Shown here: in pieces, positions 8,653 through 33,745 of the stretch
Position numbering within the stretch: position 1 is the first letter of the stretch
Layout of the letters: the number at the start of each line of letters is the position of its first letter
Source: Paracoccus saliphilus
GTDB lineage: Bacteria; Pseudomonadota; Alphaproteobacteria; Rhodobacterales; Rhodobacteraceae
Length of the DNA: 64,000 nucleotides
Assembly (NCBI RefSeq): GCF_028553805.1
Contig: NZ_CP067140.1
Span: 124,001-188,000, forward strand
Reading direction: 5' to 3'
Notes under the pieces: model-generated
Databases searched by the model: none
What the model was told of the DNA's origin: nothing
The model's input: the letters and a program-made list of their open reading frames with translations, nothing else
Program-made: the position numbers and the translations under genes

Positions 8653-8700
8653 TCCGATAGATCGGGCAGCCAGCCCGCTTGTGATGGAGGAGATCACGTC

Positions 8701-11680: not shown

Positions 11681-11688
11681 AACGTGCT

Positions 11689-13465: not shown

Positions 13466-14152
13466 TTACAGAACTCCTGCCAGGAAACCCGCGCCCGTCA
13501 GGGCGACTGCTGTGCCCGCTGTCCGCGTGGCCAGCAGATTGGAACGGATGAGACTGCCAATGCCGACACCGCTCAGATGCAGAAGTCCTGTGCCAAGAAC
13601 GAATCCCGCCGCGTAAATCAGGGGATTGGCGGTGCCGGGCATCTCGGCTCCATGTGCGTGTCCATGGAATATGGCGAAGAATGCCACGACGGAGGTGGCC
13701 ATGACCACAGAGGGGCTACGCAGCACGATAGCAAACCCGATGATCAGCGCCGAAGCGGCGATGCCGGTTTCAACGCCCGGCAGCGGCATTCCCATTGTTC
13801 CGAGAACTCCTCCTAGGATCATCGCCAGCAGAAAGGCAACCGGCAGGGCCCAGCTTGCGGGTCTGCTGAACAGGGCGCTCCAAAGCCCGACCGCCACCAT
13901 TGCGGCCACGTGATCCGCACCGAGAAGCGGGTGCTGGAACCCAGACATGAAACTGCTTCCGGTGGCATGGCCCGTATGGGCCAGCGCGGGAGAGACTATG
14001 ACCAGCCCCAGCCCCCCTGCAGTCAAGGCTGCGCGCGAGTACCGCTTCAACCGGTTTTCATGCCACTCATGATCTTTGGGGAGCAGGTCGCCGCTGACGG
14101 CTTTGGTGTCTGGCAAGTGGTTCATGCAGGTGCGGCTTATCCGGGCGTTCAT
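13466..14152 (-). CDS. HupE/UreJ-family nickel permease
   Basis: This 228-residue membrane protein shows the HupE/UreJ hallmark near the start of the mature part, FMSGFQHPLLGADHVAAM (HPxxGxDH type), and a second metal-site region FFAIFHGHAHG. About six membrane segments follow a signal-like stretch ending PALAH. HupE/UreJ proteins transport Ni(II), sometimes Co(II). The start at 14152 has GGAG at good spacing, giving an N-terminal lead of about 34 residues. It is the last gene of the lar operon, 40 bp after larC. No hydrogenase or urease gene is in the window, so I infer it supplies nickel for the LarA cofactor. Confidence 0.87.
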   Translation of the reverse strand: MNARISRTCMNHLPDTKAVSGDLLPKDHEWHENRLKRYSRAALTAGGLGLVIVSPALAHTGHATGSSFMSGFQHPLLGADHVAAMVAVGLWSALFSRPASWALPVAFLLAMILGGVLGTMGMPLPGVETGIAASALIIGFAIVLRSPSVVMATSVVAFFAIFHGHAHGAEMPGTANPLIYAAGFVLGTGLLHLSGVGIGSLIRSNLLATRTAGTAVALTGAGFLAGVL

Positions 14153-14192
14153 TCAAATCTCCTAATTCGTTTGGGGCGAGCATCCAGTCGGC

Positions 14193-15440
14193 TCAGTCAT
14201 TCTCGGCCAGACGCGCCCGCGCACGGCGCGCAGCCAGCGTCGGGGCCCCGTCGAGGTCGTCGCTTTCTGCCTTGAAGGTGACGCCTGAAGGCCGGATGGT
14301 GCTTTTGCGCCTGGTCTTGCCGTCCGGTGCGATATCGGCACTGCGCGGCAGGATGAGCCGCGTGACCTCGGTCCGGCGCAGGCCCAAGGTGCTGGTTTGG
14401 TTGAACAGGGCTTCGACGATCCGTGCCTCGGCCTCTGGCTTCAGCAACAGTTCCATGCGGGTCACCGGACGGGCCTTTTTCCCCTGCGCAGATAGCAGGA
14501 CAAGGTCGATCACGCCGGACAGGGCGCGTAATCTCTCGACCGCCGCCCCGATTTCCTCGCCCGTCATGTCGTCGATATCGCAGGCCAGTTGCAGCACCTG
14601 GTCGGTCTGGCTGGGCGCATTGGCCATGTCGAAAGCAGTCACTCGCAGAATGTTCGGCCGGTCGGGCAAGTCTCGGATGCCTGCGCCCATGCCGATGGAC
14701 ACAAGGCGGCCAGATCGACGGAGGCCCGGTCTGCCTTGGGTCAGATGAGCGATGATCGCCGCGCCTGTCGGCGTGACGCGCTCGCCAGCCACGCCATCGT
14801 CATGCCAGGTGTAGCCCTGCAGAATCCGGGCCGTTGCAGGGGCCGGGACGGGCAGCATGCCATGGGCTGTCTGTATCATGCCATCGCCCAAGGGCAGAGA
14901 CGCCAGCGACCAGCTTGCCCCCTTTAGCGCAGCGGCGATACTGCCGGCAGCAGTCACGTCCATCAGCGCGTCCCAATCGGCAAGTTCGTGGAAATGGACG
15001 CGCTCGATCGGAATGTCATGTGCTGCCGCCTCGGCCTCGGCAATCAGGTGCAGAATGGCGCAGGCGTGCTCGGCCGTGCCTTCAGAGAGCGGTGCCGCCT
15101 CGATCATGGCACGCATGGCGCGGTAGGTTGTTTCTTCGCCATGGCGATGGTTTCCATGCCCGTGATGGTCATGGTCGTGCGAATGGGTATGGTCGTGATG
15201 GTGGCCGTCCTCCGGCGTTACCAACGCAAAGCGCTGCACCGACATGCCGCCGCTAAGCCCGCGGGTCAAAGCGGCATGGCCGACATGTTCGGGCAGGATG
15301 GCGGCGATGTCGCGCATGATTCGGTCTTCCAGCGCCGGAAAACTGTCCAGCATCGCGGCGATGAACATGTCGCCCGCCGCGCCTCCGACGGGATCGATGT
15401 GAATATGCAGGCGCGTGCCTTCCGGTAAATCCATGGTCAT
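14193..15440 (-). CDS. larC: Nickel insertion protein LarC (nickel-pincer cofactor synthesis)
   Basis: LarC is a CTP-dependent cyclometallase that inserts nickel into the pyridinium bis-thiocarboxylate precursor of the LarA cofactor. This 415-residue protein begins with the family's HIDPVGGAAGDMFIAA and later has RVHFHELADWDALMD and GVAGERVTPTGAAI. A histidine/aspartate-rich stretch at about residues 78-102 is a likely nickel store or binding loop. It is one unbroken frame, unlike Lactiplantibacillus plantarum, where larC is read through a programmed frameshift. Its ATG overlaps the larA stop as ATGA, so the two are translationally coupled. Confidence 0.93.
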   Translation of the reverse strand: MTMDLPEGTRLHIHIDPVGGAAGDMFIAAMLDSFPALEDRIMRDIAAILPEHVGHAALTRGLSGGMSVQRFALVTPEDGHHHDHTHSHDHDHHGHGNHRHGEETTYRAMRAMIEAAPLSEGTAEHACAILHLIAEAEAAAHDIPIERVHFHELADWDALMDVTAAGSIAAALKGASWSLASLPLGDGMIQTAHGMLPVPAPATARILQGYTWHDDGVAGERVTPTGAAIIAHLTQGRPGLRRSGRLVSIGMGAGIRDLPDRPNILRVTAFDMANAPSQTDQVLQLACDIDDMTGEEIGAAVERLRALSGVIDLVLLSAQGKKARPVTRMELLLKPEAEARIVEALFNQTSTLGLRRTEVTRLILPRSADIAPDGKTRRKSTIRPSGVTFKAESDDLDGAPTLAARRARARLAEND

Positions 15441-16771
15441 TGCGCCTCGGGCCAGGAATTGATCAGACGGCCATCCTCGAAGCGCATCTCTTCCAAAGCT
15501 CCCACGATCTCGATACCGGGTCGGGCCTGCAATTCGGGCAGCATGGCTTCGGACGCGTATATATATTCCAGATGCAGCGTGTTGGGGACCCGCAGCAGGC
15601 GCGCATTCGAGATATCCTCGGCCCCGCAGGTCTTGACCGCCGCCTGGATGGCGCTGCGATCATCCGGCATGACCATCGGCATATGGGCCTGTGTCAGCAC
15701 GGTCGAGGTCAGCGCATTCGCATAGACCGCCTCACGGTCGAACGCCGCTTCGAGACGTGCCGTCACCACATCGGCCCGCGCTGCGCCGTTACCGTTTCCG
15801 TTACTGCGCGGCGACAATTCCAACGCCGCCAGCCGCGCGATCCGGAGTGTCGCATGGGCCTGCATCTTGGGCGACGAGAAGCGGTGCGTGATGTTCGGAT
15901 CCATACCGGTGCCGGAAAATTCCTTGCCGATTTGGTCCACGACCAGCACATCCAGATCTCCTGCAGCGGTTGGCGCGTCGACTGGCCCAAGCGGCAACCT
16001 GGGCATGTTGGCCATCGCCTCTTGCAGGAAAGGCTGCTCCGCCTCCAGCATCCCTTCGCTGTCCAGAACAACGACACGGGCCAGCCGGTCATAGGCGTTC
16101 TCGATCGTGCCGATGCCAAACAGGATCTTGCAGCGTTCCAGTTTCATCCGCGCCATCAGATCGACATAGACCGGCACCTCGTCGATCCCGCGTGAATGGC
16201 ATGCCTCGGCGCCAGATTGCTTGCCAAGGCCGATGGCCAGCATTTTGGCGAGCCCGCTTTCATTCGCCGCGCGAAATGACGTATGCGGCTTGATGCGATT
16301 GAACAGCACGATCCCGTCGGCCTCATGAGCCAGCCTGTCGATGCGCACCGACATGCCGTTATCCAGCCGACCGATCTCGACCGTCTCCATCGAGGAGCGG
16401 ATGGGGCAGCCGATCACGGCCTCGGTCACTCCCAGCTTTTCCAGCGCCGCCGTCTGCCCCTCGGCGGTCGCGCCGCCATGGCTACCCATCGAGGGTACGA
16501 CAAAGGGTTCTGCGCCGCGCGCCCTTACCTCTTTCACGATTGCTGTCACCAGTTCGGGGAATGCGGCAATACCCCGGCTGCCCGCCGTTATCGCGAGGGA
16601 CATCCCCGGCCGGATCTTTGCGGCACAATCCGCTCCTGCCATCTCGTCATGCACAGCTGCCGCCGGATCCTCGATATGGTCGGAAGGAAAGCTTTGCCGG
16701 CACAGTGCGATGCGCGGCAGCGGCGTATCCTCGACCAGTTTCACGTAGTTAGGTCTTGTCCTGTCCGACAT
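15437..16771 (-). CDS. larA: LarA-family nickel-pincer hydroxyacid racemase/epimerase
   Basis: This 444-residue protein belongs to the LarA superfamily, which inverts alpha-hydroxyacid carbons by hydride transfer with a nickel-pincer nucleotide. His98 (MGSHGG) and His163 (IKPHTS) fit the acid/base pair His108/His174 of L. plantarum LarA. Lys176 (SGLAKM) fits the cofactor-linked lysine and His192 (EACHSRG) the nickel ligand. The 16-residue gap between Lys176 and His192 equals that of Lys184-His200. Surrounding sequence differs from true lactate racemases, so the substrate may be another 2-hydroxyacid or a sugar acid. It lies 12 bp after uxaA and overlaps larC. Confidence 0.9.
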   Translation of the reverse strand: MSDRTRPNYVKLVEDTPLPRIALCRQSFPSDHIEDPAAAVHDEMAGADCAAKIRPGMSLAITAGSRGIAAFPELVTAIVKEVRARGAEPFVVPSMGSHGGATAEGQTAALEKLGVTEAVIGCPIRSSMETVEIGRLDNGMSVRIDRLAHEADGIVLFNRIKPHTSFRAANESGLAKMLAIGLGKQSGAEACHSRGIDEVPVYVDLMARMKLERCKILFGIGTIENAYDRLARVVVLDSEGMLEAEQPFLQEAMANMPRLPLGPVDAPTAAGDLDVLVVDQIGKEFSGTGMDPNITHRFSSPKMQAHATLRIARLAALELSPRSNGNGNGAARADVVTARLEAAFDREAVYANALTSTVLTQAHMPMVMPDDRSAIQAAVKTCGAEDISNARLLRVPNTLHLEYIYASEAMLPELQARPGIEIVGALEEMRFEDGRLINSWPEAQ

Positions 16772-16783
16772 GATCTTTCCTTC

Positions 16784-18334
16784 CTATCCGGTGACCCCGA
16801 TGGGCCACGGTGCGAATTCCTCTTCCCCGACGCCAAGCGCTTCGGATTTGCTTTTCTCTCCCGAAGCGATGGCAAGGATCTTGCGAAAGATCGCCTCGCC
16901 CATCTCTTCGAGGCTCATCTCGCCATCGACGATCTGGCCACAATTTATGTCCATATCCTCCTCCATCCGGGTGAACATGGGCGTATTCGAGGCGAGCTTG
17001 ATCGTCGGCGAGGGGTAGGAACCAAAACAGGAGCCCCGCCCGGTGGTGAAGCAGATCAGGTTGGCACCCCCGGCGATTTGCCCGGTGGCCGAGACCGGAT
17101 CGAAGCCCGGCGTATCCATGAAGACGAGACCCTTTTCGGTCACCGGTTCGGCATAGCGGTAAACCTCCATCAGCCCGGTCGTGCCGCCTTTCTTGGCGCC
17201 GCCCAGGGATTTCTCCAGCACATTGGCAAGCCCCCCGGCCTGATTTCCCGGGCTGACCACGCCGTTGATCTGGGTGTCCTTGCCCTTGGTATGATCCAGC
17301 CACCAATCCATCCGCTCGACCAGCTTGCGGCCAATCGTTTCGCTACGGGCGCGCCGGGTCAGCAGATGCTCGACCCCGAAGATCTCGGGCGTTTCCGACA
17401 GGATCGCGGTACCGCCGTTGCGGATCAGGATATCCGCTGCGTGCCCAAGGGCGGGATTCGCCGTCAGCCCCGACAGCCCGTCCGATCCGCCGCATTGCAT
17501 ACCGATGGTAATATGTTCGGCCGAGCAGGGCTCGCGCCGGACCTTGTTTGCCTCTTCCAGCATCTCGCGTACGGCGGCCTTTCCGTCGGCGATGGCCCGC
17601 GCGGTGCCTCCGACATGCTGCATGGTGATGCCGCGAAGCATCTTGCCCTCGGCCAGACTTTGTTCCTCGAAGAACTGCATCAGGTTGTTGCGCTCGCATC
17701 CGAGCGAGCAGACTACGGCGCCAGCCATGTTGGGATGGCGGATATAGCCGGCGAGCGTGCGGCGCAGCAGGTCCATCGGCTCGCCTGTCAGTTCCATCCC
17801 GCAGCCGGATTCGTGGATGAAGGGAATGACGCCATCGACATTCGGCCATTCCTCGATCCGCTCCTCGTCAAAGTAATTCGCGATCTTGCGCGCGACGGTG
17901 GCCGAGCAGTTCACGGTGACAAAGAGGCCGATGTAGTTGCGCGTCCCGACCTTGCCATTCGCGCGGCGGATACCTTGAAACTGGGCCCGCTCCCCTTCTG
18001 GCAGTATGTCAGTTGGTCGATAATCGCGGGCGAAGGCGTAATCCTTCTCGACCGCGTCGAAGCGGATATTGTGGCTGTGCAGCCAATCGCCCGGCATGAT
18101 GTCATGGGCGGCATAGCCGATCACGGTCTCGAATTTCAGGATCGGCGCGCCGGCCTGGATTGGACGGGTGGCGACCTTGTGACCCTGCGGCACCTTCTCG
18201 CGGGTGGTCACGCCTTCCTCGGAAAGTTCCGTACCCCCGGGGATTTCGCGAATGGCGACAACGATATTGTCTCCCGTGCTGAGGCGCAGCACCGGGGCGC
18301 TGGTTCTGTCCTGTTCGAGCGTCGTGACTGTCAT
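16784..18334 (-). CDS. UxaA/GarD-family sugar-acid dehydratase
   Basis: This 516-residue protein has the altronate/galactarate dehydratase layout: an N-terminal SAF domain (about residues 18-90, with GDWLHSHN) and the large UxaA domain with NGKVGTRNYI, VNCSATVA, HESGCGMEL, CSLGCERNN and QCGGSDGLSG. Family enzymes use iron to remove water from altronate, galactarate or related acids, giving 2-keto-3-deoxy acids. Its length fits UxaA (about 495) and GarD (about 523). GAAAGGAGAAACC precedes the start. Placement directly before larA suggests that LarA adjusts a hydroxyl centre for or after this step. Sulfolactate lyase SuyAB is a related alternative but is normally two separate subunits. Confidence 0.87.
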   Translation of the reverse strand: MTVTTLEQDRTSAPVLRLSTGDNIVVAIREIPGGTELSEEGVTTREKVPQGHKVATRPIQAGAPILKFETVIGYAAHDIMPGDWLHSHNIRFDAVEKDYAFARDYRPTDILPEGERAQFQGIRRANGKVGTRNYIGLFVTVNCSATVARKIANYFDEERIEEWPNVDGVIPFIHESGCGMELTGEPMDLLRRTLAGYIRHPNMAGAVVCSLGCERNNLMQFFEEQSLAEGKMLRGITMQHVGGTARAIADGKAAVREMLEEANKVRREPCSAEHITIGMQCGGSDGLSGLTANPALGHAADILIRNGGTAILSETPEIFGVEHLLTRRARSETIGRKLVERMDWWLDHTKGKDTQINGVVSPGNQAGGLANVLEKSLGGAKKGGTTGLMEVYRYAEPVTEKGLVFMDTPGFDPVSATGQIAGGANLICFTTGRGSCFGSYPSPTIKLASNTPMFTRMEEDMDINCGQIVDGEMSLEEMGEAIFRKILAIASGEKSKSEALGVGEEEFAPWPIGVTG

Positions 18335-18415
18335 GGTTTCTCCTTTCCGAAGGACAATTTGCCGCGTTCAGGCACTCAGATGGCGCTCCTCGGTGTGATG
18401 CGCGAATACTCCCGC

Positions 18416-19207
18416 TCAGACCTCGCGGGCATAGTCGGTTACGCGTTGACGAGCCTGAAGCAGGTGGTAAGCCATCGTCAGCCCTGCCGCGTCGATATCG
18501 CGGGCAAGGATGGCTTCGTATATCTGCCGGTGTTCCTGCGTGACCCGATCGATCCGTGCCTGGCTGCCTTCGCGTGTGAGGCTTTGGGCGACGTCTATGG
18601 TGCGTTCCATCACGTCGCGGATCGCATTCAGCATGATGACGAAGGCGTCGTTTCCACTGGCCTCGGCGATCGCAAGGTGAAAATCGAAATCCGCGTCCAG
18701 CGCCACTTCACGGCGCCGCATCAGGTTTTCAAGCGTTTTCAGCGCGGCTTCGATCTTGGCAATCTCTCGCGATCCGGCGCGCTGCGCGGCCAGCTTTGCA
18801 GTCGCTTTCTCCACTACCATTCGCGCTTCCATGGCCCGCATGAGGCCCGATACGCTGTCGGCAGTGGTAAACTCGATCAGCCGTTGCGGCGGGCGCTTGC
18901 GAACGAAGGAGCCAACGCCGCGCCGCGCCTCGACCAACCCGTCATCCTGTAGCTTGCGCAAGGCTTCCCGGACCACGGGGCGGGACACTCCGAAAGCCGA
19001 GCAGATCTGGTTTTCCGATGGGAGCTTTTCGCCTTGCTTGAGTGCTCCCGAGACGATCTGTTCGAGGATCTGACCGTAGAGCTGATCTGACAGCGTCTTG
19101 CGCTTGCGGATTGTCAGCTTGCCATTGTCCATATCCAGACCTTCAAGCCGGGCAGTTCCCTGCTGCGGCACCTTTCCCAAGATATCTAGCCGTGGCGAAT
19201 TCGTCAT
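18416..19207 (-). CDS. GntR-family regulator with FCD domain (first of two in the lar operon)
   Basis: This 263-residue protein has a GntR winged helix at about residues 32-105 (LPSENQICSAFGVSRPVVREAL, shown only in part: SVSRPVVREALRKL type) and an FCD ligand domain after it. FCD domains sense carboxylates through a metal held by Asp/His residues; FDFHLAIAE and EHRQIYEAI carry candidates. The start at 19207 lies 6 bases after the larB stop; an in-frame ATG at 19132 with GAAGG upstream is an alternative giving 238 residues. It is embedded between larB and uxaA, so it likely controls this operon or the acid pathway. Confidence 0.88.
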   Translation of the reverse strand: MTNSPRLDILGKVPQQGTARLEGLDMDNGKLTIRKRKTLSDQLYGQILEQIVSGALKQGEKLPSENQICSAFGVSRPVVREALRKLQDDGLVEARRGVGSFVRKRPPQRLIEFTTADSVSGLMRAMEARMVVEKATAKLAAQRAGSREIAKIEAALKTLENLMRRREVALDADFDFHLAIAEASGNDAFVIMLNAIRDVMERTIDVAQSLTREGSQARIDRVTQEHRQIYEAILARDIDAAGLTMAYHLLQARQRVTDYAREV

Positions 19208-19213
19208 GTAAAG

Positions 19214-19903
19214 CTAACCATCCTGGGGCGCTGCCGCATGGGCGAAGCGCAGGGCGGCACAGGCCGCGCCATAGCCATTGTCAATATTGGTGACCACAAC
19301 GCCGGGCGCACAGCTTGCCAGCGCCGCGTCCAGCGCCACCCGCCCCCCGGTCGCCACGCCATAGCCAACCGAGGTGGGTACAGCGATCACCAGTCCCGGC
19401 ACCAGCCCGGCCACGACAGAGGGTAAAGCGGCATCCATTCCGGCGAAAACGATCACCACCTGCATGTCACGTAAAAGCGGTGCGCGCTCGAGCAGACGCC
19501 ACAACCCCGCAACTCCGACATCCGGTACCTCGGTTGCGGCAAGGCCCGAATAGGCCAGCACCCGCCGCGCCTCTGCTACAGCAGCGGCATCCGAAGTGCC
19601 GGCACTGACCAATGCCACGTGAGGTGTCGCCGCTTGCGGGGGCAGATCGCCCAGGATCGCGCTCCGCGACAAGGCGCAATAATCAAGTGCGGAACGCTGC
19701 CGGTCCGGCAGGGCCCGGAACTGTGACACGGACATCCGCGTCAAGAGGAGGCGACGGTCTTCCAGCATCGCATCGTCGATGATGGCGGCAATCTGTTCGG
19801 GCGTCTTGGGCTCGGCCAGCACGGCCTCCTCCAATCCGATCCGCGCCTCCCGAGCGCGGTCGAAAGTGACGTTGGGGTGGCTGTCCAATCGCTTGTCAGG
19901 CAT
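19214..19903 (-). CDS. larB: Nickel-pincer cofactor biosynthesis protein LarB
   Basis: LarB carboxylates nicotinic acid adenine dinucleotide and cleaves it to pyridinium-3,5-dicarboxylate mononucleotide, the first step to the LarA cofactor. This 229-residue protein has the expected two-part form. The N-terminal segment contains TFDRAREARIG, and the PurE-like C-terminal domain shows VALVSAGTSD, VIVFAGMDAALPSVVAG and IAVPTSVGYG. Its start overlaps the end of larE by 8 bases, so the two are co-translated in pathway order. Confidence 0.93.
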   Translation of the reverse strand: MPDKRLDSHPNVTFDRAREARIGLEEAVLAEPKTPEQIAAIIDDAMLEDRRLLLTRMSVSQFRALPDRQRSALDYCALSRSAILGDLPPQAATPHVALVSAGTSDAAAVAEARRVLAYSGLAATEVPDVGVAGLWRLLERAPLLRDMQVVIVFAGMDAALPSVVAGLVPGLVIAVPTSVGYGVATGGRVALDAALASCAPGVVVTNIDNGYGAACAALRFAHAAAPQDG

Positions 19904-20699
19904 GCAGAAACGCGCTTCCTCGCTGATAGGGGCGAAGGGTGACGGTCAATTCTTCGCCGCCATGTTGACGGCTGGCCTCTCGTGCCCGCGCGGTCAATTC
20001 GGCGAGCCTATTCGAGTTGAGACTGTCCATCAGTACCCGATCCATCTCGATGGCCAGCCCCGTATGCAGGCGGCGGCAGCGTAGGGTGACTTCACCCAGC
20101 TCCGTGCGAAGCGCCGTTTCCACCGCGTCTATCATGGCAAGCTCGGCCGGTTCGACCCGCAAGCCAGTCTCGATCCGGCTGGCAAGACAGGGAGACGCTG
20201 GCAACTCTGCGATATCGCCCAAGCCCAGAGATCGGGCCAGGGTGCGGACATCCGCCTTGGTCATCCGGGCCTGAACGAATGGGTGCAGGATACCGTGCTC
20301 CTCCGCGGCCTGGAGGCCGGGTCGATAATCGCCCAGATCGTCGAGATTGGTTCCGGCGGCAACGGTCCTGTCGCCCCACAGGCGTGTCAGTGTTCCATAT
20401 AGATTGGATTTGCAGAAATAGCAGCGATTGACCGGATTGGCGCGATAGCGCTTGTCGGAAAACTCACCGGCATCGACAATTTCCAATGTCAGCCCTCGCT
20501 TGGTTGCGAAGGCTTTCACCCGCTTTGTCGCCGCATCCGGAACCGCGGGTGAGACAGCATGGCAAAGTGTCAGGTTCCTGCCGTTCCGCGCTGCCACTGC
20601 TGCCGCGGAGAGGCAGAGGCTGTCCACGCCGCCACTGACCGCGATGGCGAGTGCGTCGGGTTGGCGCAGTAACTCAGTGAGGTCAGATGGCAAACTCAT
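19896..20699 (-). CDS. larE: Pyridinium dicarboxylate sulfurtransferase LarE
   Basis: LarE adenylates the LarB product and adds sulfur to make the bis-thiocarboxylate. This 267-residue protein has the PP-loop SGGVDS at residues 22-27. It carries three conserved-position cysteines: Cys93 and Cys96 (NRCYFCKS) and Cys171 (SPCLASR). Cys171 matches the sacrificial cysteine of L. plantarum LarE, while the three-cysteine set matches the [4Fe-4S] LarE type described from Thermotoga. I therefore predict an iron-sulfur, non-sacrificial enzyme. I chose the ATG at 20699, which overlaps the preceding gntR stop as ATGA with GAGGA 7 bases upstream. Confidence 0.93.
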   Translation of the reverse strand: MSLPSDLTELLRQPDALAIAVSGGVDSLCLSAAAVAARNGRNLTLCHAVSPAVPDAATKRVKAFATKRGLTLEIVDAGEFSDKRYRANPVNRCYFCKSNLYGTLTRLWGDRTVAAGTNLDDLGDYRPGLQAAEEHGILHPFVQARMTKADVRTLARSLGLGDIAELPASPCLASRIETGLRVEPAELAMIDAVETALRTELGEVTLRCRRLHTGLAIEMDRVLMDSLNSNRLAELTARAREASRQHGGEELTVTLRPYQRGSAFLHA

Positions 20700-21448
20700 T
20701 CCCGGTCCTCGCTGTTCCACAGATGTCCCAACAGTCTGGCACTGGACAGTTCCAGATGCTTGCGCATCAGCTTTCGGGCGGCAAGGCTGTCCTGTGCCTC
20801 GATCGCCTCGGCGACGGCGCGATGTTCCTCGGCCGCTTCCCGGCTGTCGCCGCCACGCTCGACAGAGCGATTGCGTCCGGCTTCGATCGTTTCCCGCAAG
20901 CTGGCGCTGAGATAGTTGAACAGGCCAAGATAATAATCATTCTGCGTCGCTACGCAGATTGCGCGGTGAAACTGCAGATCGGCATCGACCCCGGCGCGCA
21001 CCTGTTCGGGGCCGAATTTCTGCACGGCGGCAAAGGCCGAAACCGCGGCATGGATCTGTTCCAGATCCGCATTGTCGCGACGGATAGCGGCAATCGCGGC
21101 GGCCTCGATTTCGACCCCGAGGCGCAGTTCGAGGATTTGGGCAAGCTTGCGGCGATTGTCCACGTCCTGCTCGTCGATGGAAAAGCCCATGCGGGACCGG
21201 TTGCTGGAGACGAATGCGCCCCGGCCCTGATGGCTGGCCAATAGACCTTCGGCCTTGAGGCGCGATACCGCTTCGCGGATCACCGAACGGCTGACGTCCA
21301 GCTTTTGCGACAATGCGGCTTCGGAGGGTAGCATGCTGCCTACTGGCCAGTCACCGTTAACGACATAGCGTCGCAGCGCTTCCGTCGCCTGATCGCTGAG
21401 GGTCTGGCCACGGGCCAGGGGCGCGGCATTTTCAAATAAATCGCTCAT
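20696..21448 (-). CDS. GntR-family regulator with FCD domain (second of two, operon head)
   Basis: This 250-residue FadR-type regulator has a GntR winged helix at about residues 15-80 (KLDVSRSVIREAVSRL) and an FCD domain with the family's FHRAICVAT and EHRAVAEAI segments. It heads the leftward lar operon and shares a 311-bp control region with the divergent TAXI-TRAP operon, so it probably regulates both sides. Its stop overlaps the larE start. It is clearly different in sequence from the other GntR in the operon, so this is not a recent duplication. Confidence 0.9.
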   Translation of the reverse strand: MSDLFENAAPLARGQTLSDQATEALRRYVVNGDWPVGSMLPSEAALSQKLDVSRSVIREAVSRLKAEGLLASHQGRGAFVSSNRSRMGFSIDEQDVDNRRKLAQILELRLGVEIEAAAIAAIRRDNADLEQIHAAVSAFAAVQKFGPEQVRAGVDADLQFHRAICVATQNDYYLGLFNYLSASLRETIEAGRNRSVERGGDSREAAEEHRAVAEAIEAQDSLAARKLMRKHLELSSARLLGHLWNSEDRE

Positions 21449-21759
21449 GACCCTTCCCTCCTTTCCTCGTTGGCAAGCCTACACCTATATGGCAAGCTGT
21501 CAATAAGATGACATTACAGCAATGAAGTCTGTCGTTTCGATTGAGAATCTTTAATATATTGAATTTGTATATAATTTTATGTAGAAGCACAAAAACGCAT
21601 ATTTATTGATGTATTTTTATTTGACAAGTAGGTGGCAATTGGACAGGGTTGCCGCGACGGCACGGTCGTGCCGCACCAGGAGGAAATACGGGTGGATCGA
21701 CGCTTATCGGCCGTTATGGGGCGGCGGGGCGTGCTCGGCCCTATAACGGGGAGGTTTTC
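21449..21759. promoter_or_regulatory. Divergent control region between the lar operon and the TAXI-TRAP operon
   Basis: These 311 bases hold no gene and are AT-rich, unlike their surroundings. At 21498-21513 TGTCA-ATAAGA-TGACA is a perfect inverted repeat, a reasonable site for a FadR-type GntR protein. A TTGACA hexamer lies at 21621-21626 facing the TRAP genes, without a good -10 at standard spacing. The sequence GGCAAGC occurs twice about 20 bases apart near 21473 and 21491. Confidence 0.45.
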
Positions 21760-22722
21760 ATGTCTCAGATATTCAAGGCTATGTGCCGTACCGCAACGGC
21801 GGTGACTGTTCTGGCGGGTGCCACTATCGGTGCGCATGCGCAGACCATTACCATGGCAACCGGGCAGCAGGGCGGATCGTGGTATCCGGTTGGTGGTGCC
21901 ATCAAGGCGATCGTCGAGCGCGAGCTTCCGGACGTCAGCATGACCGTGACGCCGGGCGCCGGGGTGTCCAATGTCGTTGGCGTGGAAGCCGGTCGCTTCC
22001 AGATCGCCTTTGCCAATTCGATCTCGACGGTGGACAGCCTTTCGGGGAAAGAGCCGTTCCGGGAAGCCACGACCAATGTCTGCAATATCGGCATACTTTA
22101 TCCGCAATATTTTCAGGTCGTGGCGCTCGCCGATTCGGGGATCGAGGCCGTTGCCGATATCGAGGGCAAGCGCCTGACCACGCAGCAGCTTGGCAATACC
22201 GGGGAGTTTCTGACCCGCGAATTGCTGTCGACCGCCGATCTGACCTTTGACGATCTCGATTCGGTTGCGCACACGTCCTATTCCGACAGCGCTTCCCAGA
22301 TGAAGGACGGGCATGCGGATATCTTCACGTTGGGCTCTTCGCTGCCCACCGGTTCGGTGATGGATCTTGCCTCCGCGCGAGATATCAGGCTGATTGATGT
22401 CGATGAAGAAACCTTCCAGCATTTCAAGGATCAGAACGCCGCGTTCCAAAGGCGTGAGGTTCCGGCGGGCTCTTATCCGGGCTTCGATGAGACGGTGCAT
22501 GCCATCAGCTATGATACCCATATGGTCGCGCCTTGCGACTCCGATGGCGAGCTGGTCAAGGCGGTGTTGGGGGCCATCGCTGACAATGTCGACAGCTTTG
22601 CCTCGGTTACCAAGTCGATGGCGGATCTGACGGTCGAGGAAATGGCGACCGATATCGGGGTGCCGTTCCATCCCGCAGCCAAGGATTTCTACACCGAGCG
22701 CGGCGTGGAAGGTTTGGAATAA
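21760..22722 (+). CDS. TRAP transporter substrate-binding protein, TAXI family
   Basis: This 320-residue periplasmic protein belongs to the TAXI family, the receptors of TRAP transporters with one fused permease. It has a signal peptide ending GAHAQ (about residue 27), then the hallmark ATGQQGGSWYPVGGAI, and later PGAGVSNV and FANSISTV. The start at 21760 follows GGGGAGG. Such receptors usually bind organic acids; glutamate, 2-oxoglutarate and others are reported. It is the first gene of the rightward operon facing the lar genes, so a 2-hydroxyacid or sugar acid is a plausible ligand. Confidence 0.92.
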   Translation: MSQIFKAMCRTATAVTVLAGATIGAHAQTITMATGQQGGSWYPVGGAIKAIVERELPDVSMTVTPGAGVSNVVGVEAGRFQIAFANSISTVDSLSGKEPFREATTNVCNIGILYPQYFQVVALADSGIEAVADIEGKRLTTQQLGNTGEFLTRELLSTADLTFDDLDSVAHTSYSDSASQMKDGHADIFTLGSSLPTGSVMDLASARDIRLIDVDEETFQHFKDQNAAFQRREVPAGSYPGFDETVHAISYDTHMVAPCDSDGELVKAVLGAIADNVDSFASVTKSMADLTVEEMATDIGVPFHPAAKDFYTERGVEGLE

Positions 22723-22852: not shown

Positions 22853-24709
22853 ATGAACTTGACGATTTTGGACCGGAGCATACCGCTATTGGGGCGCATC
22901 GCACGCCTCATCCTGATCGGGATGGCGCTTTGGCATTTATACGTAGCGTTTGTCGGGCCGCCGAATCCTTATATCATGCGGGGCGTTCACGTTGCGCTGG
23001 CGCTGTTGCTGATCTTTCTTACGGTTGATTTCCGGGGGCGGCTCGTAGAGCGACCCAGATGGTACGATATCGGGTTCGGCGTTGTCGCCTGTCTGGCCGC
23101 GCTATATCCGTCACTGAATCTCGACTATATCTTCCAGCGCTTCCTGTATGTCGATCCGCTGACACCACGCGATACCGTTGTCGGGATCACCTTGGTGGTT
23201 CTGCTCCTTGAAGCCACGAGAAGAATGCTCGGGCCGATGCTGCCCATCACCGCCATCTGTTTCATGGCCTATGGGCTTTTGTTCACATCGACCTTGCCGA
23301 GCGTGATACTCGAGCAGCTTTTCATGACACCCGAAGGGATCTTCGGTATCCCGACCTCGGTCTCGGCGACCTATATGGTCCTGTTCATCCTGTTCGGTTC
23401 GCTGGTCGAACGGATGGGTGTAGGTCAACTTTTCATGGATTTCGCCGTGGCGCTGACCGGTAAGCAGGCCGGGGGGCCGGCCAAGGTGGCCTGCGTCACC
23501 TCGGGCATGTTCGGTTCGGTTTCGGGCTCTGCGGTGGCCAATGTGATGACCACCGGCACCTTCTCGATCCCGCTGATGAAGCGCATGGGTTTCAAGCCCG
23601 CCTTCTCGGGCGCGGTCGAAGCTGTCGCCTCGACGGGGGGGCAGATCATGCCGCCGGTCATGGGGGCAGCTGCCTTCGTCATGGCCGAGTATCTGGGGGT
23701 CAGTTATCTTCAGGTGGCAAAATACGCCATCGCACCTGCGGTCCTGTTCTATGTCGCGCTATTTGCGGCAGTGCATTTCGAGGCCAAGCGCAATGGCATC
23801 GGCTCGGTTCCGAAAGAGGATCAGGTGCCGATGGGGCAGGTGCTGCGCGAGCGTGGTCATCTGTTCCTGCCGCTGGCCATTATCATCGGTGTGCTGTTGA
23901 ATGGCTATTCAGCGCCCTATGCGGCGCTCTGCGGGGTGCTGTCCGTCGTGCCCGTGGCGGCAATGCGCAAGACCACCCGACATTATGTGACCCTGGACAA
24001 CGTTCTGGTTGCGCTTGAGAACGGTGCCCGCAACGTGTTGTCCATCGCGGCGGCCTGCGCCTGTGCGGGTATCGTCGTGGGTGTGATCGACATCACGGGG
24101 CTGGGGCTGTCTTTCTCGAATTTCGTGATCTCGGCGGCACAGGACAAGTTGCTTTTCGCGCTGCTGCTGTCGATGGTGGCGGGGATCATCCTGGGCATGG
24201 GAATGCCTACCACGCCCGCCTATATCGTTCAGGTCGCGCTGCTGGTGCCCGCGCTGGTCAAGCTGGGTGTGCAGGCCGAGGCGGCACATCTGTTCGTGTT
24301 CTATTTCGCCATCCTCTCTGCCATCACACCGCCGGTTGCCATGGCGGTCTATGCGGCCAACTCGTTGAGCCAGGCGAAGATCATCGAGGCGAGTATCGCG
24401 GCGATCAAGCTGGGGGCGACCGGCTTCATCGTGCCCTTCATGTTCGTCTACGAGCCGACAATCCTGATGCAGGGCGAATGGTTCCGCATCGTGATCGTGA
24501 TTGCCCAGGCCACGCTCGGGGTGGTGCTGCTGGCAGCGTCTTTGCAGCGCTACTTCTTCGGCAAGCTGGAGAGGTGGCAAGTGGGGGTGCTATTCGTCGG
24601 GGCATTGTGCTTTATCTATCCCGATTGGCGTGTGACATTGTGCGGGCTCGCCTGTGCCGGACTGGTCTGGTTCCGTCAAAGCCTGCGTCAACCACGATCC
24701 GCCACGTAG
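22853..24709 (+). CDS. TRAP transporter fused permease (TAXI-associated, DctQM-like)
   Basis: This 618-residue inner-membrane protein joins the small (DctQ-like, about 4 helices) and large (DctM-like, about 12 helices) TRAP subunits in one chain, as is normal for TAXI systems. Typical segments are FGSVSGSAVANVMTTGTFSIP, STGGQIMPPVMGAAAF and GMGMPTTPAYI, which match the repeated DctM scoop motifs. The start at 22853 is 130 bp after the receptor gene. It works with the TAXI receptor as a sodium- or proton-driven importer. Confidence 0.93.
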   Translation: MNLTILDRSIPLLGRIARLILIGMALWHLYVAFVGPPNPYIMRGVHVALALLLIFLTVDFRGRLVERPRWYDIGFGVVACLAALYPSLNLDYIFQRFLYVDPLTPRDTVVGITLVVLLLEATRRMLGPMLPITAICFMAYGLLFTSTLPSVILEQLFMTPEGIFGIPTSVSATYMVLFILFGSLVERMGVGQLFMDFAVALTGKQAGGPAKVACVTSGMFGSVSGSAVANVMTTGTFSIPLMKRMGFKPAFSGAVEAVASTGGQIMPPVMGAAAFVMAEYLGVSYLQVAKYAIAPAVLFYVALFAAVHFEAKRNGIGSVPKEDQVPMGQVLRERGHLFLPLAIIIGVLLNGYSAPYAALCGVLSVVPVAAMRKTTRHYVTLDNVLVALENGARNVLSIAAACACAGIVVGVIDITGLGLSFSNFVISAAQDKLLFALLLSMVAGIILGMGMPTTPAYIVQVALLVPALVKLGVQAEAAHLFVFYFAILSAITPPVAMAVYAANSLSQAKIIEASIAAIKLGATGFIVPFMFVYEPTILMQGEWFRIVIVIAQATLGVVLLAASLQRYFFGKLERWQVGVLFVGALCFIYPDWRVTLCGLACAGLVWFRQSLRQPRSAT

Positions 24710-24745
24710 CCGGGCAAATGATCCATGCGAGAAACGGAGACAAGC

Positions 24746-26443
24746 ATGCTGCAATCAACCAATCTTCCAACCCGCAGCGGCGGTCAGATCCTTGTCGATC
24801 AGCTTTTGATCCATGGTGCCGACACCGCCTATTGCGTGCCGGGGGAAAGCTATCTGGAAGTGCTGGATGCGTTGCATGATGTGGAAGATCGTTTCACCCT
24901 GATCAACGCACGACATGAGGCCGGGGCGGCCAATATGGCCGAGGCTCATGGCAAGCTGACCGGAACGCCGGGCATCTGCATGGTAACTCGCGGTCCCGGT
25001 GCCTGCCATGCGGCTATCGGGGTGCATATCGCGCAGCAGGACAGCACGCCGATGATCCTGCTCGTCGGGCAGATCGCGCGGGGCACCACTGATCGCGAAG
25101 CGTTTCAAGAGGTCGATTACCGGGCCATGTTCGGCCCGATCGCGAAATGGGCCACGCAGATCGACGATCCGCGGCGGATTCCGGAATACATGGCGCGGGC
25201 CTTTCGTGTCGCGACCTCGGGCCGCCCCGGTCCGGTGGTTGTCGCGCTGCCCGAGGACATGCTGACCGAATGCGTGGCCGTTGCCGATGCGCGTCCATAT
25301 GCCGCCACCGGCGCGGGTATCACGCCCGAGAACCTCGAAGCCGTGAAGGCCGAGCTGATGACAGCGGAGCGTCCCTTGCTGCTGGTGGGCGGCTCGGGTT
25401 GGGACGATGCCGCTGCCGGCGCAATCACCCGCTTTGCCGAGGCGAACAATATCCCGGTCACCTGTTCGTTCCGCCGTCAGGACATCGTTGACAACCTCTC
25501 ACCGGTCTATGCGGGCGATTTCGGGACATCGACCGGCCCGACACTGTACAAGCACCTGGAAGAGGCCGATCTGCTGGTCGTCATCGGTGCGAGGCTGGGC
25601 GAGATGACGACGCGCACCTATACATCGCTTGATGCTCCCAATCCCGGCATCCGGCTGGTGCATATCCATCCTGATGCGGATGAGATTGGGCGCGTCTATT
25701 CCCCGGATTTGGGGCTGGCCTGCACGCCCGCCGTGATCGCCGCCTCGCTGTACGGCAGCGATCTGGGCAAGGCCGATACCTGGGCCGATTGGTGCGCCGC
25801 CCTGCATGGCGACTACCTCGCCGATACCGAGGCGCCCAACGGCGGCGAGTGGTCGCTGGATATGGGCGTGGCGCTGGCGCAGGTTCGCGACGAGTTGCCC
25901 GATGATGTCGTGGTGACGATGGATGCGGGTAATCACAATGGCTGGGCACAGCGTTTCCTGCGCTTCGCACGGCCGGGGCGCGTGCTGGGCTCGACCTGCG
26001 GCGCCATGGGCTATTCGGTGCCTGCCGCCGTCGCGGCATCGATCTCGAATCCCGAACGGCTGGTGTTGTCCTTCGTGGGTGATGGCGGCTTCCTGATGAG
26101 CGGCAACGAACTGGCCACCGCTGCGCAATATGGCGGCAAGCCGGTGGTGCTGCTGTTCAACAACGGCATCTATGGCACGATCCGCATGCATCAGGAGCGC
26201 GAGCATCCCGAGCGGGTGTCGGGTACGACATTGCAGAACCAGGATTTCTGCCGCATGGCCGAAGGGTTGGGTTGCCATGCCGAACGCGTGACCAGAACCG
26301 AGGATTTTGCCGATGCCCTGACCCGCGCGCGCGAAAGCGGTCGCCCCGCTGTTCTGGAGCTGGTGACAGACCCCGAACAAATCTCGACGCGCACCACGAT
26401 CTCGGCACTGCGCCGTGCGGCCAAGGCAAAGCAGACGAGTTGA
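24746..26443 (+). CDS. ThDP-dependent enzyme, acetolactate synthase-like
   Basis: This 565-residue protein has the three domains of ThDP decarboxylases and acetohydroxyacid synthases. The activating glutamate lies in NARHEAGAANMAEA near residue 50. The cofactor motif begins GDGGFLMSGNEL and ends FNNGIYG. The family is broad: acetolactate synthase, glyoxylate carboligase, sulfopyruvate and benzoylformate decarboxylases. No small regulatory subunit gene is adjacent, so valine/leucine synthesis is unlikely. I chose the ATG at 24746, which has GGAG 7 bases upstream, over one 21 bases earlier. With an FAD hydroxyacid dehydrogenase 6 bp downstream, it may act on the 2-oxoacid that enzyme makes. The substrate is unknown. 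Confidence 0.85.
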   Translation: MLQSTNLPTRSGGQILVDQLLIHGADTAYCVPGESYLEVLDALHDVEDRFTLINARHEAGAANMAEAHGKLTGTPGICMVTRGPGACHAAIGVHIAQQDSTPMILLVGQIARGTTDREAFQEVDYRAMFGPIAKWATQIDDPRRIPEYMARAFRVATSGRPGPVVVALPEDMLTECVAVADARPYAATGAGITPENLEAVKAELMTAERPLLLVGGSGWDDAAAGAITRFAEANNIPVTCSFRRQDIVDNLSPVYAGDFGTSTGPTLYKHLEEADLLVVIGARLGEMTTRTYTSLDAPNPGIRLVHIHPDADEIGRVYSPDLGLACTPAVIAASLYGSDLGKADTWADWCAALHGDYLADTEAPNGGEWSLDMGVALAQVRDELPDDVVVTMDAGNHNGWAQRFLRFARPGRVLGSTCGAMGYSVPAAVAASISNPERLVLSFVGDGGFLMSGNELATAAQYGGKPVVLLFNNGIYGTIRMHQEREHPERVSGTTLQNQDFCRMAEGLGCHAERVTRTEDFADALTRARESGRPAVLELVTDPEQISTRTTISALRRAAKAKQTS

Positions 26444-26449
26444 GAGAAG

Positions 26450-27886
26450 ATGAGCTTTCCCCAATCTGATCTGGTCCAACGCGGGATATCCGACGAGTTT
26501 TACCAGGCATTGGAGGCCGCAGTCGGTGCGGCTCATGTCGTTGTCGATCCAAAGGCGATGGAACCGCGTCTGATCGAGGATCGCGGCCTTTATCGGGGAT
26601 CGGCACTGGCGCTGGTGCGGCCCGGCACGACCGAAGAGGTCGCAAAGGTGGTGCGGGTTTGCCGCGCCGCCGCGGTGCCGATCGTGCCGCAGGGCGGCAA
26701 TACGGGCCTGGTCGGCGGCGGTGTGCCGCAGGATGCGGTGGTCCTGGTGACGGACCGGCTGAACCGGATCCGCGCGGTCGATCCGCTGAACTCGACCATG
26801 ACGGTCGAGGCCGGGTGTATCCTGTCCAATATCCAGCAGGCCGCGAATGATATCGATCGGCTGTTTCCGCTGTCCCTGGCCTCTGAGGGATCTTGCCAGA
26901 TCGGCGGCAACCTTTCGACGAATGCGGGAGGAACGGCGGTGCTGCGTTATGGGAATATGCGCGAGCTGGTGCTGGGTCTGGAAGTCGTTTTGCCCGATGG
27001 TGAAATCCTGAATGACCTGAACGGGTTGCGTAAGAACAACACCGGTTACGATTTGCGCAACCTCTTTATCGGTGCCGAAGGAACCTTGGGGATCATCACC
27101 GCCGCAGTGCTCAAGCTGTACTCGAAGCCCGTTCTGCGGGCGACCGCGCTGGTGGCCTGCGAAGGGCCGCAAGCCGCGCTGGCATTGTATGACCGGCTTC
27201 GGTCGCGAAACGCGGACAGCCTGTCCACCTTCGAATATATTGAACGGATCGCGTTGCAGATGGTGCTGGATCACACACCCGGTTGCGCCGATCCGATGGC
27301 GCAGGAGCATCCGGCCTATGTGCTTGTCGAATTGACATCGTCCGATCCCGAAGCCGATCTGGATACCCGTCTGGAGGCGGCTTTGGCGGCGGCTTTCGAG
27401 GTTGAGGAAATTCTTGATGCCGTCATCGGGGCCTCCGAAAGTCAGCGCGACGCATTATGGGCCCTGCGCGAGAACCTGTCGGAAGCGCAGAAATTCGCAG
27501 GGGCGTCGATCAAGCATGATGTGGCGGTGCCGGTATCGAGGGTTGCCGAGTTTCTGATGACTGCATCGTCGGCCTGCCGTGCCCATGTCCCAGCTGTCCG
27601 GATCTGCCCTTTCGGTCATTTCGGGGATGGCAATATCCATTTCAATTTGTCCCGCCCGCTGGACATGTCGGATGCCGATTTCCTGGAGGAATATCCGGCT
27701 TTCAACCGTATCGTGCATGATATAGTTGCCGAACTGGGTGGTTCCATCTCCGCCGAGCATGGAATTGGATTGGTCAAACGGCAGGAACTGCGCCGCTACA
27801 AGGATCCGGTGGCGTTGAGAGTGATGGAGCAGATCAAGACGGTACTCGATCCCGAGGGGCTGATGAATCCGGGCAAGGTGCTTTGA
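26450..27886 (+). CDS. FAD-linked 2-hydroxyacid dehydrogenase (GlcD/D2HGDH-like)
   Basis: This 478-residue protein joins an FAD_binding_4 domain (VPQGGNTGLVGG, SEGSCQIGGNLSTNAGG) to the FAD-oxidase C-terminal domain with the catalytic-site segment PFGHFGDGNIHFN and the ending DPEGLMNPGKVL. Members oxidise D-lactate, D-2-hydroxyglutarate, glycolate or similar acids to 2-oxoacids and pass electrons to a carrier. It starts 6 bp after the ThDP enzyme, which suggests linked steps: hydroxyacid to oxoacid, then decarboxylation or ligation. LarA in the facing operon could supply the D-isomer. No glcE or glcF partner is present, so it probably works alone. Confidence 0.9.
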   Translation: MSFPQSDLVQRGISDEFYQALEAAVGAAHVVVDPKAMEPRLIEDRGLYRGSALALVRPGTTEEVAKVVRVCRAAAVPIVPQGGNTGLVGGGVPQDAVVLVTDRLNRIRAVDPLNSTMTVEAGCILSNIQQAANDIDRLFPLSLASEGSCQIGGNLSTNAGGTAVLRYGNMRELVLGLEVVLPDGEILNDLNGLRKNNTGYDLRNLFIGAEGTLGIITAAVLKLYSKPVLRATALVACEGPQAALALYDRLRSRNADSLSTFEYIERIALQMVLDHTPGCADPMAQEHPAYVLVELTSSDPEADLDTRLEAALAAAFEVEEILDAVIGASESQRDALWALRENLSEAQKFAGASIKHDVAVPVSRVAEFLMTASSACRAHVPAVRICPFGHFGDGNIHFNLSRPLDMSDADFLEEYPAFNRIVHDIVAELGGSISAEHGIGLVKRQELRRYKDPVALRVMEQIKTVLDPEGLMNPGKVL

Positions 27887-32451: not shown

Positions 32452-32769
32452 GTGATATACGACCATAGGACCTATATTTGCCGGCCGGGCACGATCAAGA
32501 AGCACATGAAGCTGTATGAAGAGCATGGCTGGAGCGTCCAGAGCCGTCATCTGGGCAAGCCCTTGCTGTATGGTGCTGTCGAAACCGGCGATGTGAATTC
32601 CTACGTTCATATATGGGTCTTCGAAAGCGCGGCGGATCGCGCCGCGAAACGTGCCGCCTTGCAGGCGGATCCGGATTGGCAGGCCTATCTCGCCAAGAGT
32701 GCTGAGGCTGGATATCTCATCAAGCAGGAAAACAAGATCCTTGTCCCGGCACCGTTCTTTGAAGGCTGA
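32452..32769 (+). CDS. NIPSNAP family protein
   Basis: This 105-residue protein matches NIPSNAP, a ferredoxin-like alpha/beta barrel fold of unknown chemistry often found in catabolic clusters. It has the typical start YDHRTYICRPG and the block VHIWVFESAADRAAKRAAL. The start is a GTG at 32452 with GGAGGG upstream; the frame is open further back but has no ribosome site or family similarity there. It lies between divergent tctC and a convergent gntR, probably in the same regulon. Confidence 0.85.
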   Translation: MIYDHRTYICRPGTIKKHMKLYEEHGWSVQSRHLGKPLLYGAVETGDVNSYVHIWVFESAADRAAKRAALQADPDWQAYLAKSAEAGYLIKQENKILVPAPFFEG

Positions 32770-32793: not shown

Positions 32794-33522
32794 CTATGAA
32801 GGCGCCGCGGGGGCGAAATATTCGGGATGGGATGCGCGGAACTCTTCCACCCAGTCCGACGGCTTGTACAGGTGATCGCGCATGGCGCCCATCGCCGCCA
32901 ACTCGTCCCGTGTCTCGATCCCGCGAAGAATCGCCTCATGACCGCTGATGATGCTTTGCAACTTCTCTTTCGAGTGAATCTGCAGGCGTCTGACCCGGTC
33001 GAGATGCCCGGAGCGAGAGCGGATCAGGCTTCGCAGGTTGTCATGCCCCAGGCCCGTGAAGAGGATGCCGTGGAAATGCTCGTCAAGTTCCTGAAACAGC
33101 CTGAGCTGGCTCTGATCCTCGGCCACCCCGCGCTGCAACTCGATGACCGAGCGTCCTTGCTCCGTCACATCCGCGGCGCCCTGCCGTGCCAATTGGCGAA
33201 CCACCTCGGTCTCAAGCGCCACCCGTAGCATTGACGCTTCATGGATCTTGGGAATGTCGATCAGGGTCACCGTTGTCCGGGATTGCGGAATGATCCGGAC
33301 AAGATCGTCCTGTTCCAGTCGTTGCAGGGCATCGCGCAGCGGTGTCTGGCTGACCTCGTATTTTGCTGCAAGCTCCGTGCGCAGCAACCCGGTACCGGGC
33401 GGCAGGTCCAGTGACAGGATGCGCTGGCGGAGATCGCCGTAGATCCGGGCGGAGGCCAACGACCAATCGCGCGGCAAGCTGAGACGAACCAGATCCAGGG
33501 CGGCCTTCACCGACGTATTCAT
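32794..33522 (-). CDS. GntR-family regulator with FCD domain
   Basis: This 242-residue regulator has a GntR winged helix at about residues 20-85 (ELAAKYEVSQTPLRDALQRL) and an FCD domain containing LDEHFHGILF and GHEAILRGIE. I chose the ATG at 33522, where GGAAAG lies upstream, rather than one at 33555. It is divergent from the aldehyde dehydrogenase/KdgD/dehydrogenase operon with a 223-bp shared region, so it likely responds to a sugar acid and controls that operon and perhaps the tct genes. Confidence 0.89.
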   Translation of the reverse strand: MNTSVKAALDLVRLSLPRDWSLASARIYGDLRQRILSLDLPPGTGLLRTELAAKYEVSQTPLRDALQRLEQDDLVRIIPQSRTTVTLIDIPKIHEASMLRVALETEVVRQLARQGAADVTEQGRSVIELQRGVAEDQSQLRLFQELDEHFHGILFTGLGHDNLRSLIRSRSGHLDRVRRLQIHSKEKLQSIISGHEAILRGIETRDELAAMGAMRDHLYKPSDWVEEFRASHPEYFAPAAPS

Positions 33523-33745
33523 GCTTGCTTTCCCATTCCTTTTTCTTCGCGACATTGTTTCAACCTTATGCCAGTTGACCCGGGCGATAAACTAAAATAT
33601 TAGTGCATATGAAATCTTCATCATTCGCACGGGTGATCTGCCCGGCGTCGGCATCAGGGCGGTCGCTTCTTCTGGCACTGCTGTGATCGAGAAACGGAAT
33701 GGCCGGGCTGAGGCTGTGCAGGTTCGGAATGAAAGGTCAGCAATC

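Follow-up and report, generated by a model that had tools for sequence, protein, structure and literature searches.

Group 22 nickel-pincer isomerase beside a UxaA-type dehydratase in Paracoccus saliphilus: a candidate C2-epimerase for sugar acids

The D-gluconate 2-epimerases GntE1 and GntE2 (LarAH19 and LarAH20) catalyse a C2 epimerisation that depends on the nickel-pincer nucleotide (NPN), and their genes stand in a sugar-acid catabolic context (PMC7583248). Sugar-acid dehydratases are selective for stereochemistry: IlvD/EDD aldopentonate dehydratases are reported to have a strict specificity at C2 and C3 (PMC9795676), and a UxaA-type D-arabinonate dehydratase takes acids that agree at C2, C3 and C4 (PMC6336799). 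A LarA homolog is encoded beside a UxaA-type dehydratase in a stretch of 64,000 nucleotides of Paracoccus saliphilus (contig NZ_CP067140.1, positions 124,001 to 188,000; the window). We lean towards reading this locus as a sugar-acid catabolic island, in which LarA would be an NPN-dependent C2-epimerase feeding C2/C3-stereospecific dehydratases on a route toward 2-oxoglutarate. LarA belongs to another group than GntE: the loop residues E,V of GntE (PMC11770544) are T/S then A/S in its group, NCBIfam group 22. Weimberg-type routes have the families of the IlvD/EDD dehydratase, the DapA-type dehydratase and the alpha-ketoglutaric semialdehyde dehydrogenase in common with the loci described here. 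All of these are present in a cluster of Sulfitobacter dubius; the window genome has them as well, divided between two places. The difference from Weimberg-type routes is a nickel C2-epimerase, putatively added in front at the group 22 loci.

Eight open reading frames (ORFs) on the minus strand form the lar cluster. The original prediction of one leftward operon with larE, larB, larA, larC, a HupE permease, a UxaA/GarD dehydratase and two GntR regulators held for all ORFs, their coordinates and their families:

13466..14152, minus strand: HupE/UreJ-family nickel permease (HupE_UreJ PF04955, 184.3 bits; cut-off 23)
14193..15440, minus strand: LarC, which inserts nickel into the pincer cofactor (TIGR00299, 164.8 bits, cut-off 90; NF052512, 93.1 bits, cut-off 50)
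15437..16771, minus strand: LarA of group 22, presumed NPN-dependent C2-epimerase (NF052515, 482.9 bits; cut-off 400)
16784..18334, minus strand: UxaA/GarD-superfamily sugar-acid dehydratase of its own clade (PF08666, PF04295 and PF20629; SAF, GD_AH_second and GD_AH_C domains)
18416..19207, minus strand: GntR/FCD regulator 1 (PF00392, PF07729)
19214..19903, minus strand: LarB (NF033503, 234.4 bits; cut-off 175)
19896..20720, minus strand: LarE (TIGR00268, 243.8 bits; cut-off 150)
20696..21448, minus strand: GntR/FCD regulator 2 (PF00392, PF07729)

The order of transcription is GntR2, LarE, LarB, GntR1, UxaA, LarA, LarC and HupE, with spacers of -25, -8, 6, 81, 12, -4 and 40 bp; the 12 bp between uxaA and larA agree with the prediction. 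LarB, LarC and LarE each pass their NCBIfam equivalog cut-off, so the genes for all three cofactor steps are present, as had been proposed. HupE homologs adjoin lar genes in two other loci (L157 and L109). The arrangement of the cluster is not due to chance, as related genomes show this order of genes again. At 8644-13449 there are genes for an RbsB-like binding protein and further ORFs of what is likely a sugar ABC transporter; a gamma-glutamyltranspeptidase homolog in this region converges on hupE.

The score places LarA in NCBIfam NF052515, 'nickel pincer cofactor-dependent isomerase, group 22'. It was the sole match in the genome to the Lar_N profile (PF09861). R66, H98, H163, K176, H192 and K283 are invariant in all 53 rows of the group 22 alignment; H98 and H163 correspond to the two catalytic histidines, and R66, K176 and H192 to residues that bind NPN. 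The spacing of the first five resembles, to within a few residues, that of R75, H108, H174, K184 and H200 of Lactiplantibacillus plantarum LarA (residue numbers from PMC7583248). K283 is located in a QIGK stretch resembling the one before K298 of that enzyme. H98 and H163 also aligned to a solved LarA-family apoprotein in a weak match (E 0.11); searching the PDB with the LarA sequence by itself returned no match. The residue mapping is based on this spacing, the family alignments and the one weak profile match. In the loop after H163, group 22 has mostly T, followed by A or S, and the window protein has T164 and S165. The same loop has F,F in lactate racemases and E,V in GntE (PMC11770544); the window LarA has neither signature.

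Loci with group 22 LarA were compared beyond the window. The sample comprised 80 named loci, which are the best 80 of at least 588, and 14 from further genomes. Three of these 94 were dropped since no LarA ORF was called (L007, L011 and L105, of which L007 and L105 are one place), leaving 91 loci with the window excluded. Genes were grouped by single-linkage BLAST clustering of script-called ORFs, and each cluster was named from one scanned representative. The larB, larC and larE genes are present in 42, 44 and 41 of the 91 loci. At the genome level, LarB scored above cut-off in 20 of 20 genomes with group 22 LarA, versus 1 of 20 same-genus genomes without it. This coupling indirectly supports a predicted dependence of LarA on NPN. 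The group 22 model also matched above cut-off in the control genome of Haloferax volcanii; the group therefore reaches archaea. H. volcanii may hold an NPN enzyme (PMC8305020).

The dehydratase encoded upstream of larA has the SAF, second and C-terminal domains. Cys143, Cys178, Cys213 and Cys281, conserved in all 7 aligned UxaA sequences, are the four cysteines of the superfamily, which are connected with iron (PMC6336799). The domain order and the four cysteines are shared with altronate, galactarate, D-idonate and D-arabinonate dehydratases. The window enzyme is different from the characterised types: it is 33.6% identical to Escherichia coli UxaA and 34.4% to GarD, and scored 367.9 bits with the galactarate dehydratase model TIGR03248, below the cut-off of 730.85. 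Identities are higher with the second UxaA of the same genome (49%), which is located elsewhere in a galacturonate-type (uronate-type) cluster, and with a Paracoccus denitrificans gene presumed from its neighbours to encode D-idonate dehydratase (50.4%). In a quick tree in which several reference rows are long branches, the window UxaA and its LarA-adjacent relatives form one supported clade within a larger one. They do not cluster with E. coli UxaA, itself flagged as a long branch.

The proposed pathway may start with nickel import by HupE and NPN synthesis by LarB, LarE and LarC. The substrate of LarA would be a polyhydroxy acid of the aldonate or aldarate class, inverted at C2 through a hydride transfer between two histidines. 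Only one of the two C2 epimers would suit the UxaA-type enzyme, and inversion would let it dehydrate that acid. The resulting 2-keto-3-deoxy acid could be transformed by a KdgD-type or second DapA-type dehydratase and an aldehyde dehydrogenase into 2-oxoglutarate. Because the dehydratases are strict on the C2/C3 configuration, a C2-epimerase ahead of them would widen the range of usable acids. The observations behind this pathway are the gene content, the families, the conserved residues, the coupling of LarA and LarB and the recurrent dehydratase pairing. From these we infer the C2-epimerase activity, its substrate and direction, and the downstream route.

The pairing of larA and uxaA recurs. 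Group 22 LarA was found in 9 of 125 genus, 11 of 394 family and 3 of 398 phylum genomes, the own genome included each time. The two genes adjoin in 4 of the 9 genus genomes (G000, G871, G882 and G928). By locus, they adjoin in L157, L158 and L161 and in L005, L006, L012 and L013. They also adjoin in all four plasmid records examined, from S. dubius, Sulfitobacter D7 and two Pseudosulfitobacter, and the pairing is present in a Rhodospirillaceae genome. A plasmid-wide search gave 60 records matching UxaA at 80-90% and 60 matching LarA at 60-80%; in each search, the records divide into 47 from Pseudosulfitobacter and 13 from Sulfitobacter. The Firmicute Sporomusa termitida has the order TctCBA, larA, uxaA small, uxaA large, GntR, with uxaA split in two and a tripartite tricarboxylate transporter, TctCBA, ahead of larA. 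The pairing of LarA with a dehydratase thus recurs in at least two phyla, so the adjacency is not unique to the strain; uniqueness would have spoken against the original prediction.

Among the 91 loci, UxaA is present in 22, IlvD/EDD in 27, either dehydratase in 33 and an FGGY sugar kinase in 28. Within 5 kb of LarA, the counts are 14 for UxaA and 27 for IlvD/EDD. For comparison, the whole genomes of 101 relatives gave 63 GD_AH_C match rows, fragments included, or about 0.6 per genome. We estimate from this a background chance of well under 1% for a GD_AH_C match per 20 kb, a rough yardstick only because the loci include other phyla. On a LarA tree of 100 rows, eight of them labelled by hand, 13 changes of the dehydratase label are required, and supported branches force 10 or more of them. 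The pairing therefore recurs in separate clades; the LarA and UxaA trees are quick ones and warn of long branches. An activity on C2 of sugar acids would account for dehydratases and sugar kinases turning up repeatedly beside LarA in separate clades. A mutual exclusion of dehydratase and FGGY kinase (33 versus 28 loci, both in 2) looked like a sign that one product has two fates; it serves as context only, as the pattern follows clades and a test on independent pairs was not significant.

The S. dubius plasmid carries these kinds of genes in a single cluster. It includes TAXI-TRAP-TPP-FAD enzyme genes (transporter and enzymes described below), GntR-LarE-LarB-GntR-NIPSNAP, 2-hydroxyacid dehydrogenase-aldehyde dehydrogenase-HpcH, AraD-DapA-RraA and GntR-UxaA-LarA-LarC. 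LarE is annotated there as an adenine nucleotide alpha hydrolase. In the window genome, homologs of its AraD (79%), DapA (77%), RraA (78%) and HpcH (67%) are located elsewhere, at C1:4.283-4.301 Mb. AraD, RraA and HpcH also adjoin lar genes in L109, where AraD matches the L-arabinonate-dehydratase equivalog (1090.7 bits; cut-off 882). On the S. dubius plasmid (L178, NZ_CP085146, 12492-17623), a urease operon, encoding another nickel enzyme, follows the lar/TRAP cluster. A LarA branch of family genomes (L101-L103) has lar genes and a DctPQM-type TRAP transporter, with no dehydratase in the stretches examined.

The original prediction had the genes of 13466-21448 right, yet its extent omits two sets that recur with lar genes elsewhere. 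One is an operon at 21649-27886 that runs divergently from the lar cluster:

21649..22722, plus strand: TAXI-family solute-binding protein of a tripartite ATP-independent periplasmic (TRAP) transporter (TIGR02122, 214.7 bits; start codon approximate)
22853..24709, plus strand: fused TRAP transporter permease (TIGR02123, 621.1 bits)
24725..26443, plus strand: thiamine-pyrophosphate (TPP) enzyme, PRK08199 subfamily (NF006052, 780.1 bits; cut-off 539)
26450..27886, plus strand: GlcD-like 2-hydroxyacid oxidase/dehydrogenase linked to flavin adenine dinucleotide (FAD) (PF01565 and PF02913; TIGR00387, 273.1 bits, under the cut-off of 567.9)

The other lies further downstream, at 32452-37183:

32452..32757, plus strand: NIPSNAP-family protein, sharing 69% identity with a lar-cluster protein of S. 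dubius
32794..33555, minus strand: regulator, with 48% identity to the S. dubius GntR regulator that is encoded next to uxaA-larA
33683..35275, plus strand: aldehyde dehydrogenase, presumed 2-oxoglutarate semialdehyde dehydrogenase (PF00171; 76% to the S. dubius cluster gene)
35322..36227, plus strand: KdgD-type 5-keto-4-deoxyglucarate dehydratase, DapA family (NF002958, 409.1 bits; cut-off 278)
36227..37183, plus strand: member of the D-2-hydroxyacid dehydrogenase family (50% to its counterpart in the S. dubius cluster)

Besides the lar and TRAP genes, the window and S. dubius thus have the aldehyde dehydrogenase, the hydroxyacid dehydrogenase, NIPSNAP and the regulator in common. KdgD belongs to a different operon, some 17 kb away from uxaA, and so its link to LarA rests on the synteny with the Sulfitobacter genes around it. 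The ORF as listed begins at 35031; translation more likely starts further downstream, from the ATG at 35322 that follows AAAGGAG. The protein scored 360 bits with the stricter equivalog TIGR03249, just under the cut-off of 373.95, and its best solved match is 4UR7, a keto-deoxy-D-galactarate dehydratase. Of the active-site motifs, GGTGE, FYNR and YSSAVFNF match AbKdgD; FKDGT differs from FKDSS of AbKdgD and matches 4UR7. These scores and motifs hint at a hexarate such as galactarate as the possible substrate. The Sulfitobacter DapA is outside the KdgD subfamily (136.6 versus 278 bits); pentonates or hexonates are therefore possible there. Between the two sets, at 29145-32200 on the minus strand, a tripartite tricarboxylate transporter (TctA, TctC) is encoded; the same transporter type adjoins group 22 LarA elsewhere, for example in L186 and L013. 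The region 37214-47402 codes for a glycerol-use set with a DeoR-family regulator, GlpD, two UgpC-like ATPases, a GlcU-like permease and GlpK.

The cooperation of LarA and UxaA that the original prediction had proposed gains from the recurrence of the pairing, but several observations weigh against it. No dehydratase of either type is present in 58 of the 91 loci in the stretch examined, and the locus counts are not independent, because the best 80 of at least 588 share ancestry. Within the genus, an intact UxaA is located beside LarA in only 4 of 9 genomes. One genome (G018; locus L098, 2650-2900) has an intact LarA of 93% identity and only a short remnant of UxaA. The remnant consists of the beginning and the end of the gene, and a real deletion and an assembly artefact are both possible. 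The other four genus genomes (LarA 48% identical) have no UxaA in the LarA stretches examined; UxaA-type genes are located elsewhere in G006, G018 and G024. G251 (LarA 80%) has neither a UxaA in the stretch nor a close copy in the genome. In the family sample of 394 genomes, with the own genome counted in, UxaA (E 1e-180 or better) was found in 11, group 22 LarA in 11 and both in 3. Strict co-inheritance of the two was looked for across these family genomes and not found. The clade of the window UxaA (64-72% identity) is present in 8 family genomes without group 22 LarA, so the dehydratase does not need LarA. In all 8 it is accompanied by an RraA homolog and by an IlvD/EDD dehydratase, a homolog of the L-arabinonate dehydratase of S. 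dubius, and in 6 a DapA homolog is nearby; three of these stretches (L204-L206) end near UxaA or lose neighbours at a contig end. Two further points concern LarA itself. The place of the catalytic Asp72 of L. plantarum LarA, three residues before R66 as mapped by spacing only, is taken by V, A or G in every one of the 53 rows. In addition, all nine genus loci, the window included, have TAXI, fused TRAP and TPP genes next to LarA, which makes this operon a more constant partner of LarA within the genus than intact UxaA.

LarA may mainly serve the divergent operon, with UxaA as a dispensable add-on, a reading that we regard as rather unlikely. The TAXI-TRAP transporter would import a 2-hydroxyacid, LarA would convert the L- into the D-form, the GlcD-like FAD enzyme would oxidise the D-form, and the resulting 2-oxoacid would be decarboxylated by the TPP enzyme. 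This would account for the operon being kept where UxaA was lost; four of the nine genus loci have no UxaA in the stretch examined. The TAXI, TRAP and TPP genes are also kept beside LarA in S. dubius and Sulfitobacter D7, and likewise in L109 from another family, with a LarA of 40% identity. The GlcD-like gene was found in the 5 of the 9 genus loci whose stretch reaches that far. However, the dehydratase pairing recurs where no TPP or GlcD-like gene was seen near LarA, for example in Sporomusa and Bacillales, and L109 itself has the AraD equivalog beside its lar genes. The window genome has the AraD-DapA-RraA-HpcH set elsewhere, and close TPP homologs (67-79%) are present without group 22 LarA in four genus genomes (G009, G023, G027 and G060). 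Epimerisation for a dehydratase and supply of the FAD and TPP enzymes could also both be functions of one enzyme.

The substitution at the Asp72 place raises the question of the reaction itself. Groups without catalytic residues may perform other hydride reactions, as PMC7583248 suggests, and group 22 might use the cofactor for a reaction other than C2 inversion. We consider this improbable: both catalytic histidines and the counterpart of K298 are invariant, and the Asp72 position was mapped by spacing only. A plain lactate or malate racemase would agree with the LarA family and the complete lar gene set, but is very improbable. LarA scored 25.9 bits with the malate racemase model NF052593 (cut-off 500), its loop lacks the F,F of lactate racemases (PMC11770544), and the annotated flanking genes include no lactate permease. 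These results and the group 22 score support the expectation that LarA lies outside the classical lactate racemases. The sulfolactate sulfo-lyase SuyAB is also a member of the UxaA superfamily (PMC6336799), and a racemase with SuyAB would form a sulfolactate system. Its probability is the smallest of all. The four cysteines are conserved except in sulfolactate sulfo-lyase (PMC6336799) and the window UxaA has all of them; it is also a single chain, unlike SuyAB. The lactate, malate and sulfolactate readings were rejected on these scores, loop residues, neighbours and cysteines.

Within the preferred reading of LarA as a sugar-acid C2-epimerase, a further step is possible, though doubtful: a stereochemical funnel, in which LarA inverts C2 and two unrelated iron dehydratases take the opposite C2/C3 configurations. 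Enzymes of the IlvD/EDD AraD type would act on the C2/C3 configuration found in L-arabinonate and D-galactonate, those of the UxaA type on that of D-arabinonate and L-galactonate. Through the funnel, a sugar acid in any of its four C2/C3 configurations would reach a 2-keto-3-deoxy acid; the idea assumes a D-arabinonate-type specificity for the window UxaA. LarA, IlvD/EDD and UxaA are encoded together in the Sulfitobacter and Pseudosulfitobacter plasmids examined, and are split in the window genome between the window and C1:4.28-4.30 Mb.

The departure from lactate that was predicted for this locus is supported but not new in itself, as LarA-family D-gluconate 2-epimerases have been published (PMC7583248, PMC11770544). 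For group 22, no published activity was found in full-text searches of open-licence papers or in term searches within PMC7583248, PMC11770544, PMC11796402 and PMC11851776. New here are the coupling of group 22 to UxaA and IlvD dehydratases and the possible funnel with two dehydratases, of which no description was found; NPN-dependent sugar-acid epimerases as such are known. A LarA search gave at least 7994 homologs, not all of them necessarily of group 22. The neighbourhoods yield a short list of substrates for this group. Candidate pairs of C2 epimers are arabinonate/ribonate, galactonate/talonate, galactarate/talarate and idonate/gulonate. If the proposed function is true, the clusters would supply C2-epimerases that act on rare sugar acids, and a nickel cofactor first tied to lactate would serve generally in the use of sugar-acid stereoisomers.

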